From the NCBI RefSeq assembly GCF_013315815.1, contig NZ_CP046051.1, positions 1,611,501 through 1,675,500 of the forward strand: a DNA stretch of 64,000 nt, in the 5' to 3' direction. The translations under genes were made by a program, and so were the position numbers. Origin of the DNA: Caproicibacterium lactatifermentans (GTDB taxonomy: Bacteria > Bacillota > Clostridia > Oscillospirales > Acutalibacteraceae). Positions 1,466 to 28,511 of this stretch are shown here, one piece after another. The first letter of the stretch is position 1. The number at the start of each line of letters is the position of its first letter. Below the pieces are notes generated by a model. That model did not search any database. It had not been told where the DNA came from and saw only the letters and a list, made by a program, of their open reading frames with translations.

Positions 1466-2229
1466 TTGTGTCCTCCCATATGATTTATCATACTGGCAAG
1501 ATAGCCTGCACCAAAACCGTTGTCAATATTGACAACACTGACACCGCTTGCACAGGAGTTCAGCATAGACAGCAGTGCAGAAAGTCCGCCAAAAGACGCC
1601 CCGTAGCCAACACTGGTAGGCACGGCAATAACTGGGCAATCCGCAAGACCGCCAATCACGCTTGCCAGTGCCCCCTCCATACCGGCAACAGCGACAATGA
1701 CATACGCGCTCATAATTTCATCCAAATGTGCCAGCAGTCTGTGCAGTCCGGCAACGCCGACATCATATAAACGGTCAACATGGTTTCCAAGGACCTCAGC
1801 TGTCAGAGCCGCTTCTTCTGCAACCGGCATATCGCTGGTCCCACCAGTTGCCACAAGCACGGTGCCCGTTCCGTCTGGTTCCGGTAGTTCCCCAAGGTAG
1901 CCGATACGGCTCATTTCGTCATAATGCAGAGGAAGCGTCTGGCTTAAAATTTCCGCTTTTTCTTTGTCTAGGCGGGTAATCAGAATGTTTTTCTGCCCCG
2001 CTTTCAGCATTGCCTCAGAAATGCCGGCAATCTGCTCCGTTGTCTTTCCGGCCCCGTAAATGACTTCTGCGATTCCCTGCCGCAGACCGCGGTGATGGTC
2101 CAACTTGGCAAATCCCAAGTCCTCAAACGGTTCCATTTTCAACTGCAGCATGGCTTCATCCACACTCATGCTGCAGTTTTGGACATCATGTAAAATGCTT
2201 TGTATCTTTTCTTTGTCCAAAAGTCTCAC
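1462..2229 (-). CDS. larB: LarB, nicotinate-adenine dinucleotide carboxylase/hydrolase
   Basis: LarB carboxylates and hydrolyses nicotinic acid adenine dinucleotide to give pyridinium-3,5-biscarboxylic acid mononucleotide, the first step of NPN cofactor synthesis. The 255-residue protein has an N-terminal helical part and a PurE/AIR-carboxylase-like C-terminal domain with PTSVGYGASFGG. Cys226 in NSCASGV probably corresponds to the catalytic cysteine (C221) of the L. plantarum enzyme. The start is GTG 2229, overlapping the larE stop; TTG 2220 is an alternative. Overlaps with both neighbours indicate translational coupling. Confidence 0.93.
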   Translation of the reverse strand: MRLLDKEKIQSILHDVQNCSMSVDEAMLQLKMEPFEDLGFAKLDHHRGLRQGIAEVIYGAGKTTEQIAGISEAMLKAGQKNILITRLDKEKAEILSQTLPLHYDEMSRIGYLGELPEPDGTGTVLVATGGTSDMPVAEEAALTAEVLGNHVDRLYDVGVAGLHRLLAHLDEIMSAYVIVAVAGMEGALASVIGGLADCPVIAVPTSVGYGASFGGLSALLSMLNSCASGVSVVNIDNGFGAGYLASMINHMGGHK

Positions 2230-3008
2230 CTTCCCGCGAGGTCCAGCAGGACAGTCTGAAAATATGGATTCAGCTGCCGGCGAATATCCGCTCGCTTCTG
2301 TACCGCACGCGTCATCTGGTCCTGCGGGAACTGCAGGCGGGCAGCGTCCGCATACAGACGGACACGAAAATCTGTAAAGCCAAGTTTAAACAGCGCATTT
2401 TCAGCCCCCTCCACGCGCCGCAGCAGTTCGGCTGTAATCTGCCGGCCGGCCGGAAAGCGAGTTGCCATGCATGCATATGCCGGCTTGTTCCAAGTGAAAA
2501 GTCCCGCTTCCCTAGAAAGCTCCCGAATCTCCGGCTTCGTCAGTCCACACGCCCGCAGCGGGGAACAAACGGAAAGTTCCTGCAGTGCCTTCATGCCCGG
2601 ACGGTCCGCTACCTGATCCGAAGCGTTTGTGCCGTCTATCAGCAGCGGGCAGCCGTCCGCTTTTGCCCGCTCTTTCAGCACTGTAAACAAAGACTTCTTA
2701 CAGTAATAACAGCGGTTCTTCGGATTGTCCGTTACCTCCGACCGGGAAAGCAGGTCCAAATGCAGCACCGTAAGCGGTACGTTCAGCTGCTGTGCCAGCC
2801 GCTCAGCATCGTCCACCTCAAACTGGGGCTGAAATGCCGTTTTTATAAAATATGGGTGTACTTCCGCACCCGCCTGCACGGCCGCGTACAGCAGATAGGA
2901 AGAATCGGTTCCCCCGGAATAGGCCAGCGCGCACTTGGGATGTTCCTTGAAGAACTGCTGCAGTTTCCTGCTTCCGTCTTGTTCCGTCTTTGTTTGCTCG
3001 TCAATCAT
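2226..3008 (-). CDS. larE: LarE, ATP-dependent sulfur transferase of NPN cofactor synthesis
   Basis: LarE adenylates the biscarboxylated nucleotide from LarB and replaces both carboxylates with thiocarboxylates. The 260-residue protein has the PP-loop SGGTDSS at residues 31-37. Three cysteines, C100 and C103 (RCYYCK) plus C180 (AYACMATR), match the three-cysteine LarE type known to hold a [4Fe-4S] cluster, rather than the single sacrificial-cysteine type. ATG 3008 was chosen because it follows GGCGGAG and because the extra 38 upstream codons are unlike the family and include the leader terminator. It is the first gene of larEBC, behind a 200-base leader. Confidence 0.93.
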   Translation of the reverse strand: MIDEQTKTEQDGSRKLQQFFKEHPKCALAYSGGTDSSYLLYAAVQAGAEVHPYFIKTAFQPQFEVDDAERLAQQLNVPLTVLHLDLLSRSEVTDNPKNRCYYCKKSLFTVLKERAKADGCPLLIDGTNASDQVADRPGMKALQELSVCSPLRACGLTKPEIRELSREAGLFTWNKPAYACMATRFPAGRQITAELLRRVEGAENALFKLGFTDFRVRLYADAARLQFPQDQMTRAVQKRADIRRQLNPYFQTVLLDLAGR

Positions 3009-3088
3009 TTGTAACTCCGCCTTTCTTTTTTGCAGTGATTCAGCGGATGCAAAGAGCTGCTTTTTCGTATTCCGCGGCCGCATAAAGC

Positions 3089-3119
3089 AAAAAAACCATA
3101 CCCGTTTCTGCGGATATGG
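3089..3119 (-). terminator. Intrinsic terminator inside the larE leader (attenuator)
   Basis: On the minus strand an 8-bp stem (CCATATCC / GGGTATGG, arms 3112-3119 and 3096-3103) is followed by seven U residues (3089-3095). It sits between the promoter and the larE start, so transcription must read through it. The loop and 3' arm contain GAAACGG (3102-3108), which can instead pair with CCGTTTC earlier in the leader (3171-3177), a plausible antiterminator. Confidence 0.75.
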
Positions 3120-3215
3120 CAACCTTCCTGGTTACACACGTGATGAAAAAGCAATTCTTTCTTTTCCATGGAAACGGCTTCTGCCATTTGCAGCTGATTC
3201 TTTCAGCTATCTGCG

Positions 3216-3244
3216 AGTATAGCATTTTGTTGCGGTTTTGTCAA
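3216..3244 (-). promoter_or_regulatory. Sigma-A promoter of larEBC
   Basis: Consensus TTGACA (3239-3244) and TATACT (3216-3221) separated by 17 bases, on the reverse strand. Transcription would start near 3209, giving a leader of about 200 bases. Confidence 0.85.
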
Positions 3245-3319
3245 TAAAATTTACAGAACAGATCACAAATTCCTGTATAAATTCACCGATTTTAAAGAAG
3301 GTCTTTTCGCTGCTCCTGC

Positions 3320-3348
3320 TTGTGTTTTCCTGCAATCCATGCTATGAT
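3320..3348 (+). promoter_or_regulatory. Probable sigma-A promoter of hydE
   Basis: TTGTGT (3320-3325) and TATGAT (3343-3348) are 17 bases apart. The predicted start near 3355 gives a leader of about 147 bases before hydE. Confidence 0.6.
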
Positions 3349-3380
3349 TTTATTGTACTGTAGTATGTAAATAAAATAAA

Positions 3381-3475
3381 AAGCCGTTTCTGACGCCAAA
3401 ACAAAATTGAGGCGAAAGCAGGGCATTGCTACTCGGAACGATAGCCATATCCTGCACACTGGAGGATATGGCTAT
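3381..3475 (+). promoter_or_regulatory. Structured leader of hydE
   Basis: Three inverted repeats are visible: CGCC/GGCG (3394-3397, 3411-3414), AGCA/TGCT around 3417-3430, and a perfect 13-bp stem, 3441-3453 with 3463-3475. The blocks AAGCCGTTTC (3381-3390) and GCCATATCC (3444-3452) also occur in the same order, with similar spacing, in the divergent larE leader. No known riboswitch consensus was recognised. Confidence 0.5.
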
Positions 3476-3501
3476 TGTTAAAACAAGGAGTACGACAGGA
3501 C

Positions 3502-4548
3502 ATGACAAATCGGGAGCGAATTGATAATCTAAACCAAAAAAAAGCACTGCCGCGGACAGCATGGGTCACACTTCTGTCCACCTTTACGGCGGAAGACCAG
3601 GAATATGCGCGCACGCTTGCCCAGACACTTGCCGTCCAAAAATTTGGGAAACAGATTTTTTACCGCGGCATTATCGAATTCACAAATATCTGTAAAAATG
3701 ACTGCATTTACTGTGGCATCCGGCGCTCCAACACGGCCGTTTCCCGCTACCGCCTGACCAAAGAGGACATTCTCGCCTGCTGTGCGGCGGGGTACGAATA
3801 TGGGTACCGCACCTTTGTCCTGCAGGGCGGCGAGGACGTCTACTTTAATGACGACCGTATGACAGATATTGTCAGCAGCATTCATAGTGCTTACCCTGAC
3901 TGTGCCATTACGCTTTCGCTGGGAGAACGCAGCCGTGAAAGCTACCAGAAGCTTTTTGACGCGGGTGCCGACCGCTATCTGCTGCGCCATGAAACGGCCA
4001 ATAAAGCCCACTACGGCAAGCTGCACCCTGCACAGATGTCCTTTGACCACCGAATGCAGTGCCTGCGGGAACTCAAAGAAATTGGCTACCAAACCGGCTG
4101 CGGCATGATGATTGGCTCTCCATACCAAACTGCAGAAGACCTTGCGGAGGATATGGCATTTCTTTATGACTTTCAGCCGGAAATGGTGGGTATGGGACCG
4201 TTCATTCCTCACAAGGACACGCCGTTCCGTGACTATCCGGCGGGCCGGCTGGACTTGTGCCTGTTTTTGCTGAGCCTTACTCGTCTGATGCTGCCGGACG
4301 TCCTGCTGCCCGCCACAACAGCGCTTGGCACCATTCACCCACAGGGTCGAGAACTTGGCATTCTCTCCGGTGCCAACGTCATTATGCCGAACCTCTCTCC
4401 CACTTCTGTGCGGAAGCAATATATGCTTTACAACAATAAAATCTGTACCGATGAGGGCAGCGGACAGTGCCGTTTCTGCCTTGGCAGACGGTTTTCATCC
4501 ATCGGTTATCAAACTGTTGTTTCCCGCGGCGATTATCAAAAGCAATAA
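3502..4548 (+). CDS. hydE: [FeFe]-hydrogenase H-cluster radical SAM maturase HydE
   Basis: HydE is a radical SAM enzyme that acts with HydG and HydF to build the di-iron subcluster of [FeFe]-hydrogenase. The 348-residue protein has the radical SAM motif C64-x3-C68-x2-C71 (CKNDCIYC), the GPFIPH and LPATTALGT segments typical of HydE, and a second cysteine group near the C-terminus (C315, C323, C326). ATG 3502 follows AAGGAG; a TTG at 3475 lies inside the leader hairpin and is unlikely. No hydF, hydG or hydrogenase gene is nearby, so it is a detached maturase gene or a HydE-like paralogue. Confidence 0.87.
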   Translation: MTNRERIDNLNQKKALPRTAWVTLLSTFTAEDQEYARTLAQTLAVQKFGKQIFYRGIIEFTNICKNDCIYCGIRRSNTAVSRYRLTKEDILACCAAGYEYGYRTFVLQGGEDVYFNDDRMTDIVSSIHSAYPDCAITLSLGERSRESYQKLFDAGADRYLLRHETANKAHYGKLHPAQMSFDHRMQCLRELKEIGYQTGCGMMIGSPYQTAEDLAEDMAFLYDFQPEMVGMGPFIPHKDTPFRDYPAGRLDLCLFLLSLTRLMLPDVLLPATTALGTIHPQGRELGILSGANVIMPNLSPTSVRKQYMLYNNKICTDEGSGQCRFCLGRRFSSIGYQTVVSRGDYQKQ

Positions 4549-14481: not shown

Positions 14482-14510
14482 TTTACAAATGTTAAAACAC
14501 GTGGTATAGT
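14482..14510 (+). promoter_or_regulatory. cspA promoter
   Basis: TTTACA (14482-14487) and TATAGT (14505-14510) with a 17-base spacer. The transcript would begin near 14517, about 140 bases before the start codon. Confidence 0.75.
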
Positions 14511-14540
14511 AAATCCAGTATTTTAAAGCACGATTTGATT

Positions 14541-14596
14541 CACATGGTATTGTAAATCAACGTTCGTTTTTGATTTACGGTCCATGTGTTTTTTTC
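14541..14596 (+). terminator. Terminator-like hairpin in the cspA leader
   Basis: CACATGG (14541-14547) plus GTAAATCAA pairs with TTGATTTAC plus CCATGTG (to 14588), leaving a small internal loop, and is followed by seven T. Being between promoter and gene, it would act as an attenuator or a cold-responsive structure. Confidence 0.65.
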
Positions 14597-14656
14597 TTTG
14601 CAGAGAAATACAGACGCTAATTAACTAGTCAATTTTGTCAAGGAGGTACCTCAATA

Positions 14657-14875
14657 ATGGGTGCAAACACTGGTACAGTAAAATGGTTTAACGAAGCTAA
14701 GGGCTATGGTTTCATTTCTAACGACGACGGCAGCGGCGATGTATTCGTACATTTCTCCGCTATCCTCGGCGAAGGATTCAAAACTTTGACCGAAGGCCAG
14801 AAGGTTTCTTATGACATCGAGCCTGATCCGAAGAACAGCAGCAAGTCCCGCGCTGCTAACGTTCAGCCTCTGTAA
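14657..14875 (+). CDS. cspA: Cold-shock protein CspA/CspB family
   Basis: A 72-residue single-domain nucleic-acid chaperone of about the usual size. It has both RNA-binding motifs, KGYGFI (residues 15-20) and DVFVHF (28-33). It binds single-stranded RNA and DNA and melts mRNA structure at low temperature. ATG 14657 follows AAGGAGG. The long leader with a hairpin and U tract is typical of temperature-controlled csp mRNAs. It is monocistronic with its own promoter and terminator. Confidence 0.95.
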
Positions 14876-14890
14876 GGTCGACACCATTTA

Positions 14891-14924
14891 CGGCGGAAGG
14901 CGAAAAGCTTTCCGCCGTTTTTTT
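14891..14924 (+). terminator. cspA terminator
   Basis: CGGCGGAA pairs with TTCCGCCG (14891-14898, 14910-14917) and is followed by seven T. Confidence 0.9.
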
Positions 14925-27390: not shown

Positions 27391-27512
27391 TATCTCTCGA
27401 TACCTCATCTATCGGCTTCACCGCAGGATTTGGCACCCTACCCAGCCAAAACGGGCTGCGCGGGTTGCCGGACATCATCGGGCCTGTTCCCTCCGCCACT
27501 CTTGATAAGGGG
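27391..27512 (-). promoter_or_regulatory. SAM-I (S-box) riboswitch
   Basis: Minus-strand hallmarks in order: CTTATCAAGAGTGGCGGAGG, GGCCCGATGA, CCGGCAACC, GGTGCCAAATCCTGC and GAGAGATAA. It binds SAM and promotes termination upstream of metK. Confidence 0.96.
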
Positions 27513-28350: not shown

Positions 28351-28360
28351 AGTTCTTTCC

Positions 28361-28493
28361 ATATCTTCTACCATCCGGACTATACCGTCGGCTCCGGAAT
28401 CTCACCAGAATCTTGCGGTTTGACGACCGCTCGCGGGCTAACAGCATCTGCTGCATCACCGCCGGTGGGGAATCACACCCCGCCCCGAAGAAT
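28361..28493 (-). promoter_or_regulatory. FMN riboswitch (RFN element)
   Basis: Minus-strand signature: TTCGGGGCGGGGTG, ATTCCCCACCGGCGGT, AGCCCGCGAGC, GATTCTGGTGAGATTCCGG, GCCGACGGTATAGTCCGGAT and GAGAAG-like end. It represses ribU when FMN is abundant. Confidence 0.96.
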
Positions 28494-28511
28494 TATTCAA
28501 TTCTATTACTA

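Follow-up and report, generated by a model that had tools for sequence, protein, structure and literature searches.

Protein-controlled attenuators and leader RNAs include TRAP at trp, PyrR at pyr, LicT at RAT, and the leaders of ribosomal-protein genes, and metals and metal cofactors are served by riboswitches such as NiCo (czcD), Moco/Tuco, cobalamin, and Mn (yybP-ykoY). For the hydrogenase-maturation genes, none of the titles and abstracts listed in our searches describes a hyd or TM1266 leader RNA, and these literature searches found no account of how bacteria set the levels of the HydE, HydF, and HydG enzymes. The small protein hyd_TM1266 (TIGR03959, PF21699) is annotated as an "iron-only hydrogenase system putative regulator," and the descriptions of these two families give neither a target nor a mechanism for it. 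A passage of one paper mentions tandem Wco riboswitches before ferredoxin hydrogenase (PMC9481103).

We analyzed a 64-kb stretch of DNA, here called the window, from a genome of 1.99 Mb assembled as a single contig, in which larE and hydE are read from opposite strands (Table 1). The hydE leader is, as judged from its sequence, a member of a cis-regulatory RNA hairpin family absent from Rfam 15. Our main reading, to which we give a probability of roughly 0.6, is that this hairpin would control a regulon of hyd_TM1266, hydE, hydF, and hydG by attenuation, with the TM1266 protein as its likeliest effector. Such an element resembles protein-controlled attenuators in its leader hairpin, its choice between antiterminator and terminator, the small-protein gene in the operon, and the copies placed at translation initiation, but differs from them in its hydE/F/G and TM1266 regulon, its pseudo-two-fold core with a double GA/AA loop, and its lack of any Rfam 15 family at threshold. 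It shares with metal-cofactor riboswitches the leader location, the attenuator form, and the metal-cofactor genes downstream, whereas its hairpin core is only about 30 nt long and has no multi-helix junction. It offers a concrete, testable answer to how HydE, HydF, and HydG levels are controlled and to what TM1266 acts upon.

The initial annotation had recognized no known riboswitch in either leader, and the Rfam 15 scans bear this out, with no family at threshold on either one. At the gathering threshold, the whole window matched only FMN, cspA, SAM, and tRNA models, all away from the leaders. Between 2900 and 3700, at E up to 10, five matches were all below threshold, the best being a Streptococcus sRNA model at 3047-3166 (+), opposite larE (E 0.0048, 19.2 bits against a threshold of 72). 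The loci of 29 relatives, searched at E up to 1, gave none at threshold on the element, and the NiCo, Moco/Tuco, cobalamin, and Mn riboswitch models were absent among the matches for the window or these 29 loci. In one relative, a sub-threshold L10_leader match overlaps the element (L036 1017-1137 (+), 30.5 bits against a threshold of 44, E 0.52) and is probably due to chance.

Table 1. Features of the larE and hydE leaders, in window coordinates
Feature	Position	Strand	Basis or remark
larE	2226..3008	-	TIGR00268, 243 bits; first gene of larE-larB-larC
lar operon promoter-like site	3216..3244	-	TTGACA-17-TATACT, 11/12; consensus match only
larE-leader hairpin AAUGGC-AGAA-GCCGUU	3173..3188	-	3' arm in block A
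larE-leader intrinsic terminator	3090..3120	-	block B is the 5' arm
Block A, AAGCCGTTTC, larE leader	starts 3180	-	
Block B, GCCATATCC, larE leader	starts 3120	-	
Block A, hydE leader	3381..3390	+	5' flank; only the last two bases in the core match
Core of conserved hairpin, hydE leader	3389..3420	+	R1 and R2 matches; covariation
Core P1	C3390-G3418, U3391-A3417	+	pairing in core
Core outer loop	G3392 A3393 / A3415 A3416	+	2x2 internal loop
Core P2	3394-3397 with 3411-3414	+	CGCC/GGCG, fully paired
Core inner loop	A3398 A3399 / G3409 A3410	+	2x2 internal loop
Core P3	A3400-U3408, A3401-U3407	+	pairing in core
Proposed antiterminator 5' side, GCAGG	3418..3422	+	complement at 3451-3455
Terminator-type hairpin, hydE leader	3437..3479	+	folds; holds block B
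Block B, hydE leader	3444..3452	+	
hydE	3502..4548	+	TIGR03956, 561.5 bits

The family was found by way of a hydE search of 60 relatives, which matched 38 genomes and gave 30 loci whose upstream regions we read. A CUGA...AAAG hairpin recurs in many of these loci, directly 5' of hydE or of a TM1266 gene that precedes hydE. The consensus core is 5'-CUGA-NNNN-AARR-loop-YYGA-NNNN-AAAG-3', pseudo-two-fold symmetric, in which two 2x2 GA/AA internal loops flank a covarying helix of 4 bp; each strand reads, 5' to 3', CUGA-NNNN-AA and then AG-like purines. Among 41 members, conservation is close to complete at C2 (41/41), U3 (40/41), A5 (41/41), and A11 (41/41) of the 5' side and at G34 (40/41), A41 (41/41), and G43 (40/41) of the 3' side, with G4 at 34/41 and A35 and A40 each at 35/41. 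The window sequence has the pattern CUGA-N4-AA / GA-N4-AAAG with complementary N4 and lies 82 nt upstream of the hydE start. It scores 34.1 bits (E 8.8e-6) with the model R1, whose seed includes it, and 35.3 bits (E 6.8e-7, whole genome) with the model R2. Several leaders carry tandem copies about 40-50 nt apart (L036 at 979 and 1030, L056 at 1501 and 1550, L062 at 1540 and 1501, L158 at 177 and 227, L115 at 3849 and 3890, and L154 at 3837 and 3886). We also considered a K-turn (box C/D-like), which has a 3-nt bulge followed by tandem G.A and A.G pairs, and rejected it; both loops are symmetric 2x2 loops, with AA (35/41, 41/41) where the second strand of a K-turn outer loop has GA.

The pairing is borne out by covariation. 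The seed comprised nine members with a 4-bp P2, picked by eye for the pattern; first MAFFT alignments had misaligned the members with a 3-bp P2, and the remainder were added by way of the model. Within the seed, all seven P2 and P3 pairs vary on both sides, and 90.5% of cells pair, against 60.5% when shuffled and at most 50.8% when slid. Because these nine were hand-chosen for the pattern, the later searches are the stronger evidence. R1 gave 41 matches at E <=0.5 in 37 selected sources, and in these 41 sequences, with the outer CU/AG pairs included, 92.6% of cells pair (67.6% shuffled). The outer P1 pairs are nearly invariant, so covariation says little about P1. For 59 R2 matches from named genomes the figure is 94.4% (70.1% shuffled), in an alignment made by the model, which favors structure.

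Both models match before hydE, hydF, hydG, and hyd_TM1266, mostly in clostridial records. Applied at E <=1 to 80 TM1266 loci from named genomes, R2 gave the 59 matches in 42 loci (39 of them at 20 bits or more), every one on the sense strand. The next gene is hyd_TM1266, the annotated putative regulator, for 34 of them, hydG for 17, hydE for four, hydF for one, and another gene for three, which places 56 of 59 before the maturation set. R2 found nothing in the other 38 loci; inspected by eye, several resemble variants, others lack any recognizable leader, and some are truncated. Across 200 genomes of the taxonomic family, R1 matched in 70 at E <=1, and among the best 26 matches (at least 24.8 bits) 25 precede TM1266, hydE, hydF, or hydG, with hydF confirmed downstream at L047; the exception, L068, has none of these downstream. 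Across 398 genomes of the phylum, R2 matched in 65 at E <=0.3. Thirty of these loci were examined: 22 lie before hyd_TM1266 or hydE/F/G, two lie before ABC transporter genes and were counted separately (L088, FecCD; L105, NMT1-type), and six look false. We treated as false L068, L072-L076, and L081-L083 in the R1 set, L102, L104, L106, L108, L111, and L112 in the R2 set, and the matches in genomes G137 and G178, which lie before a DAHP synthase gene, in alaS, and, for a third of 17.1 bits, where no hyd gene was recognized downstream. Of the false matches, only L102, an intragenic repeat with 30.7 bits, reaches 27.5 bits.

The source genome carries the element before hydE and, elsewhere, before TM1266-nifH-like genes. 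In a genome of the same genus (G007) it stands at separate loci before TM1266-hydF and before hydG, with no R2 match at the hydE of that genome. The family also has members in the cultured Loigolactobacillus rennini DSM 20253 (L190) and in records whose titles name Desulfovibrio (L151), Alphaproteobacteria (L174), Lentisphaeria (L181), Erysipelotrichaceae (L166), and Acidaminococcaceae (L127); the MAG assignments among these could reflect contamination. These distributions support the hydrogenase-maturation genes as the predicted regulon of the hydE-leader hairpin.

It is very likely that the hairpin is an RNA element with an attenuation mechanism. A terminator-like hairpin with a T run lies within 160 nt after 66 of the 71 leader-type copies listed, a raw count uncorrected for background. 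An initial test for an antiterminator, with a short query against shuffles, reached p <=0.05 in 15 of 66 leaders. A second test, designed after that result, lengthened the query to include P2 and used the terminators of other leaders as the control. In it the 3' strand of the core scores a mean of 16.5 for pairing with its own terminator (5' arm or loop), against 13.1 with those of others (0 of 5000 permutations); the 67 leaders, among them that of the window with a hand-placed terminator, are related to one another, which keeps the permutation result from being a formal probability, and eight of the 67 rank worse than the middle. Before hydG, 16 of 17 copies end no more than 20 nt from the start codon (L187 was judged by sequence, and L183 is 101 nt away), and most of them end in AAAGAA-AGG, running into the ribosome-binding site.

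Since the 3' strand of the core serves as half of both structures, core and antiterminator would be mutually exclusive. Stabilization of the core would make the GAAAG strand unavailable to the antiterminator, let the terminator form, and turn the gene off, and an unbound core would leave the antiterminator to keep the gene on. In copies just 5' of hydG, a stabilized core may instead block the adjacent ribosome-binding site. Given the terminator layout together with the layout at the hydG ribosome-binding site, a stabilized core is expected to repress, and the family thus probably switches hydrogenase-maturation genes off. The signs are weaker in the window copy. Its antiterminator (GCAGG/CCUGC) has 5 bp and a rank of 0.30 for this leader, and its terminator is a strong hairpin whose short, interrupted U tract is paired into the stem; automatic calling missed it. 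The minimum free energy is -40.0 with core and terminator together and -29.5 with the antiterminator enforced. Compared with shuffles, both leaders fold better, with z scores of -3.5 for larE and -6.5 for hydE.

The TM1266 protein is our leading candidate for the effector, at about even odds. TM1266 is present in 48 of 49 selected element-bearing genomes, a co-occurrence that is partly automatic, as many elements adjoin TM1266. It was found in 24 of 24 genomes of the taxonomic family with an associated element, against 94 of all 200 over the cut-off, and in 24 of 25 phylum genomes selected from the 65, a selection in which two genomes (G283 and G250) have ABC transporter genes downstream of the element and two more (G458 and G349) were taken for their congeners with downstream genes unseen. 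The exception (G495) has the element before hydE and no TM1266 in a 94%-complete assembly; two of its congeners have TM1266. Seven of the 200 genomes have hydE and lack TM1266 (one of them, G143, has a fragment at a contig edge), and R1 found an associated element in none of them. R2, run on six of these and G128, whose hydE is below the cut-off, matched only at the three sites in G137 and G178, where no hyd gene was recognized downstream. The comparison, 23 of 88 genomes against 0 of 7, is not significant (Fisher p 0.19).

The TM1266 protein scanned here has 96 aa and the TM1266 domain only, and a relative has a solved structure (2NZC). We take its fold class to be ACT/NikR-like, resembling the ligand domain of the DNA-binding regulator NikR. 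All four ABC ATPases scanned in element-bearing clusters have a TM1266-like domain at the C-terminus, which suggests a ligand-sensing domain, and the two-fold symmetry of the core suits an oligomeric protein. The core, with CUGA-NNNN-AAAG on both strands, would most likely be bound by a TM1266 oligomer that may itself sense a metal, a cofactor precursor, or a related signal, and the whole would form an autogenous repression loop for metal-cluster assembly. A more tentative proposal is that TM1266 might be a ligand- or metal-sensing RNA-binding repressor of a two-fold symmetric RNA duplex that, by way of scattered leader hairpins, coordinates H-cluster assembly, associated ABC uptake systems, and an uncharacterized pathway of HydE and nitrogenase-like proteins. 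If true, TM1266 and the hairpin would be, as far as our searches show, the first regulator and the first regulatory RNA described for H-cluster maturation.

As an alternative to a protein effector, the hairpin itself could be the aptamer of a riboswitch for a metabolite or metal (for example, iron, a cyanide/CO-iron intermediate, SAM, or a related cofactor), with TM1266 merely co-regulated. We regard this as a lesser but real possibility, in keeping with the compact core and its near-invariant unpaired A and G, the tandem copies, the attenuator architecture, and the one genome that has the element where TM1266 was not found. Small aptamers exist, but the near-invariant positions here are almost only the two GA/AA loops and the CU/AG pairs, leaving little room for a pocket, and a riboswitch needs neither two-fold symmetry nor near-universal co-occurrence with one small protein gene. 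The same anatomy would serve equally for binding by HydE, HydF, or HydG, an Fe-S protein, or a general RNA-binding protein, and hyd genes adjoin most elements; against this, a 94%-complete genome (G192) has the element and TM1266 with no hydE over the cut-off, the source genome has the element and hydE with no hydG over the cut-off, and the hydE genomes without TM1266 have no associated element by R1 (0/7, not significant), which makes another protein improbable. That the element works as a double-stranded DNA operator is very improbable. The N4 arms do make a small inverted repeat, and TM1266 resembles the ligand domain of NikR, but the constant flanks CTGA and AAAG are direct, not inverted, repeats, which is not the arrangement expected for a symmetric dimer on DNA. 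Moreover, the 59 matches share one orientation, the cores are complementary to their own terminators, and the TM1266 protein scanned shows no other domain.

The reading that had drawn attention to the locus, that a single RNA element and a single ligand are common to the larE and hydE leaders, is now barely credible. The initial annotation had described two colinear blocks, and both are present exactly where it placed them, in the same order, 63 nt apart in hydE and 60 nt apart in larE, with AATTG between them in both leaders; it was right also that block B forms the 5' arm of the terminal hairpin in both, as the folds confirm. The 10-mer of block A is the longest exact word common to the two leaders. 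To gauge chance, 20,000 pairs of dinucleotide-shuffled leaders were compared; 2,180 pairs had a common 9-mer and 610 a common 10-mer, and in seven there were two colinear 9-mers whose spacings agreed to within 5. This last frequency, about 3.5e-4, speaks for a shared element before correction for choice, but it applies to one pre-chosen leader pair, and the actual pair and blocks were picked after reading the 64-kb window. Block A occurs in the genome at background frequency (16 copies against 15 for the reversed control). The structural contexts of the blocks also differ, as block A carries the 3' arm of a small hairpin in larE and is the flank immediately 5' of the conserved core in hydE. 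The core shares 2 bases with block A and none with block B.

Conservation, the check that had been proposed, turned out negative: a scan reaching from 60 nt upstream of the core to 120 nt downstream found each block in one of 41 family members, that of the window. In the same-genus genome, neither block lies in the 200 nt upstream of hydE, and its lar leader retains block B. Covariation is strong in the hydE-leader family. In the larE leader of the source genome neither R1 nor R2 matched, nor did R2 in that of its congener, so that the same core is not found in both leaders. On these grounds a shared larE/hydE element was rejected. Because the blocks are absent around the 40 other members and their contexts differ, chance is the best reading, and the likeness of the two leaders is probably accidental. 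What survives of the suggested common RNA control is the hydE half, a structured cis-regulatory RNA of a hydrogenase-maturation regulon, without larE as a sharer of the element or its regulator.

The larE leader is predicted to be a separate attenuator. Like intrinsic-terminator attenuators of lar operons, it has a promoter-like site, small hairpins, and a terminator, and its conserved parts are common to leaders of G007 and a further relative (G152), not to hydE leaders. The arms of its small hairpin are AAUGGC/GCCGUU here; G007 has AAUGAC/GUCAUU, G152 has AAUGGC/GUCAUU, and all three leaders retain the terminator arm GCCAUAUCCGC. In G007 the related leader precedes the gene of a 151-aa membrane protein followed by larE, larB, and larC; in G152 it precedes a homologous membrane-protein gene. 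As a DNA query against 300 genomes of the taxonomic family, the larE leader matched 265 at E <=1, nearly all short and weak, the best non-self matches being in G152 (5.9e-6) and G693 (1.3e-4). A literature search on larE returned nothing relevant.

Two further features of lar loci were seen. Two lar leaders (L202 and L206) share AUGCC-AGGAA-GGUAUCCGC, and in these and two others (L199 and L203) the terminator contains, or is immediately preceded by, a similar small hairpin, (G/A)CC-AG(G)AA-GG(C/U), which could be a separate lar regulatory RNA. The small membrane-protein gene (MACF...IEHIWHGEVVPW...; L080 4259-4714 (-)) that precedes the lar genes in G007 has homologues in G152 (L244, about 1540-2020 (+)) and, by reading, beside larE in G093 (L204). 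The protein is possibly a lar-associated uptake or accessory protein.

No hydG was found in the source genome over the cut-off, the sole TIGR03955 match being hydE itself (63 bits). The second element copy (L077 2125-5769, C1:1738624 onward) is followed by TM1266 (106.5 bits), a NifH-like gene, an unassigned gene of 441 aa, and a NifD/NifE-like gene. Since the source genome has no hydG over the cut-off, the window hydE probably serves a nitrogenase-like pathway, as judged from the neighborhood. At eight named loci (L190, L189, L186, L178, L161, L137, L132, and L166), the element and TM1266 occur with ABC transporter genes (a FecCD-type permease and an ATPase). HydE follows in four of them (L190, L161, L132, and L166) and a NifH-like gene in all except L132; neither hydG nor hydF lies in the fetched pieces. 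Family scans identified the FecCD-type permease at L190, the ATPases at L190, L189, L132, L161, and L166, HydE at L190 and L161, and the NifH-like proteins at L190, L189, L186, and L161, and the remaining assignments were made by reading. The ATPases with the C-terminal TM1266-like domain are those of L189, L132, L161, and L166. It is possible that this recurring cluster of element, TM1266, ABC transporter, and HydE and/or NifH-like genes represents an uncharacterized cofactor pathway; a lactic acid bacterium, Loigolactobacillus rennini, is among those that carry the cluster. That the same RNA groups hydE, the NifH/NifD-like set, and ABC transporters of the FecCD and sulfonate types points to a use of HydE without HydG.

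At four other loci (L049, L146, L168, and L127), the element and TM1266 are followed by NitT/TauT or sulfonate-type ABC transporter genes, by family scan for L168 and by reading for the others. Elsewhere in the window, Rfam places an FMN riboswitch at 28359-28496 (-) with 104.8 bits and a SAM riboswitch at 27402-27511 (-) with 69.7 bits. The cspA thermoregulator match at 14486-14921 (+) scores 78.4 against a gathering score of 78 and is present in the same-genus genome too.
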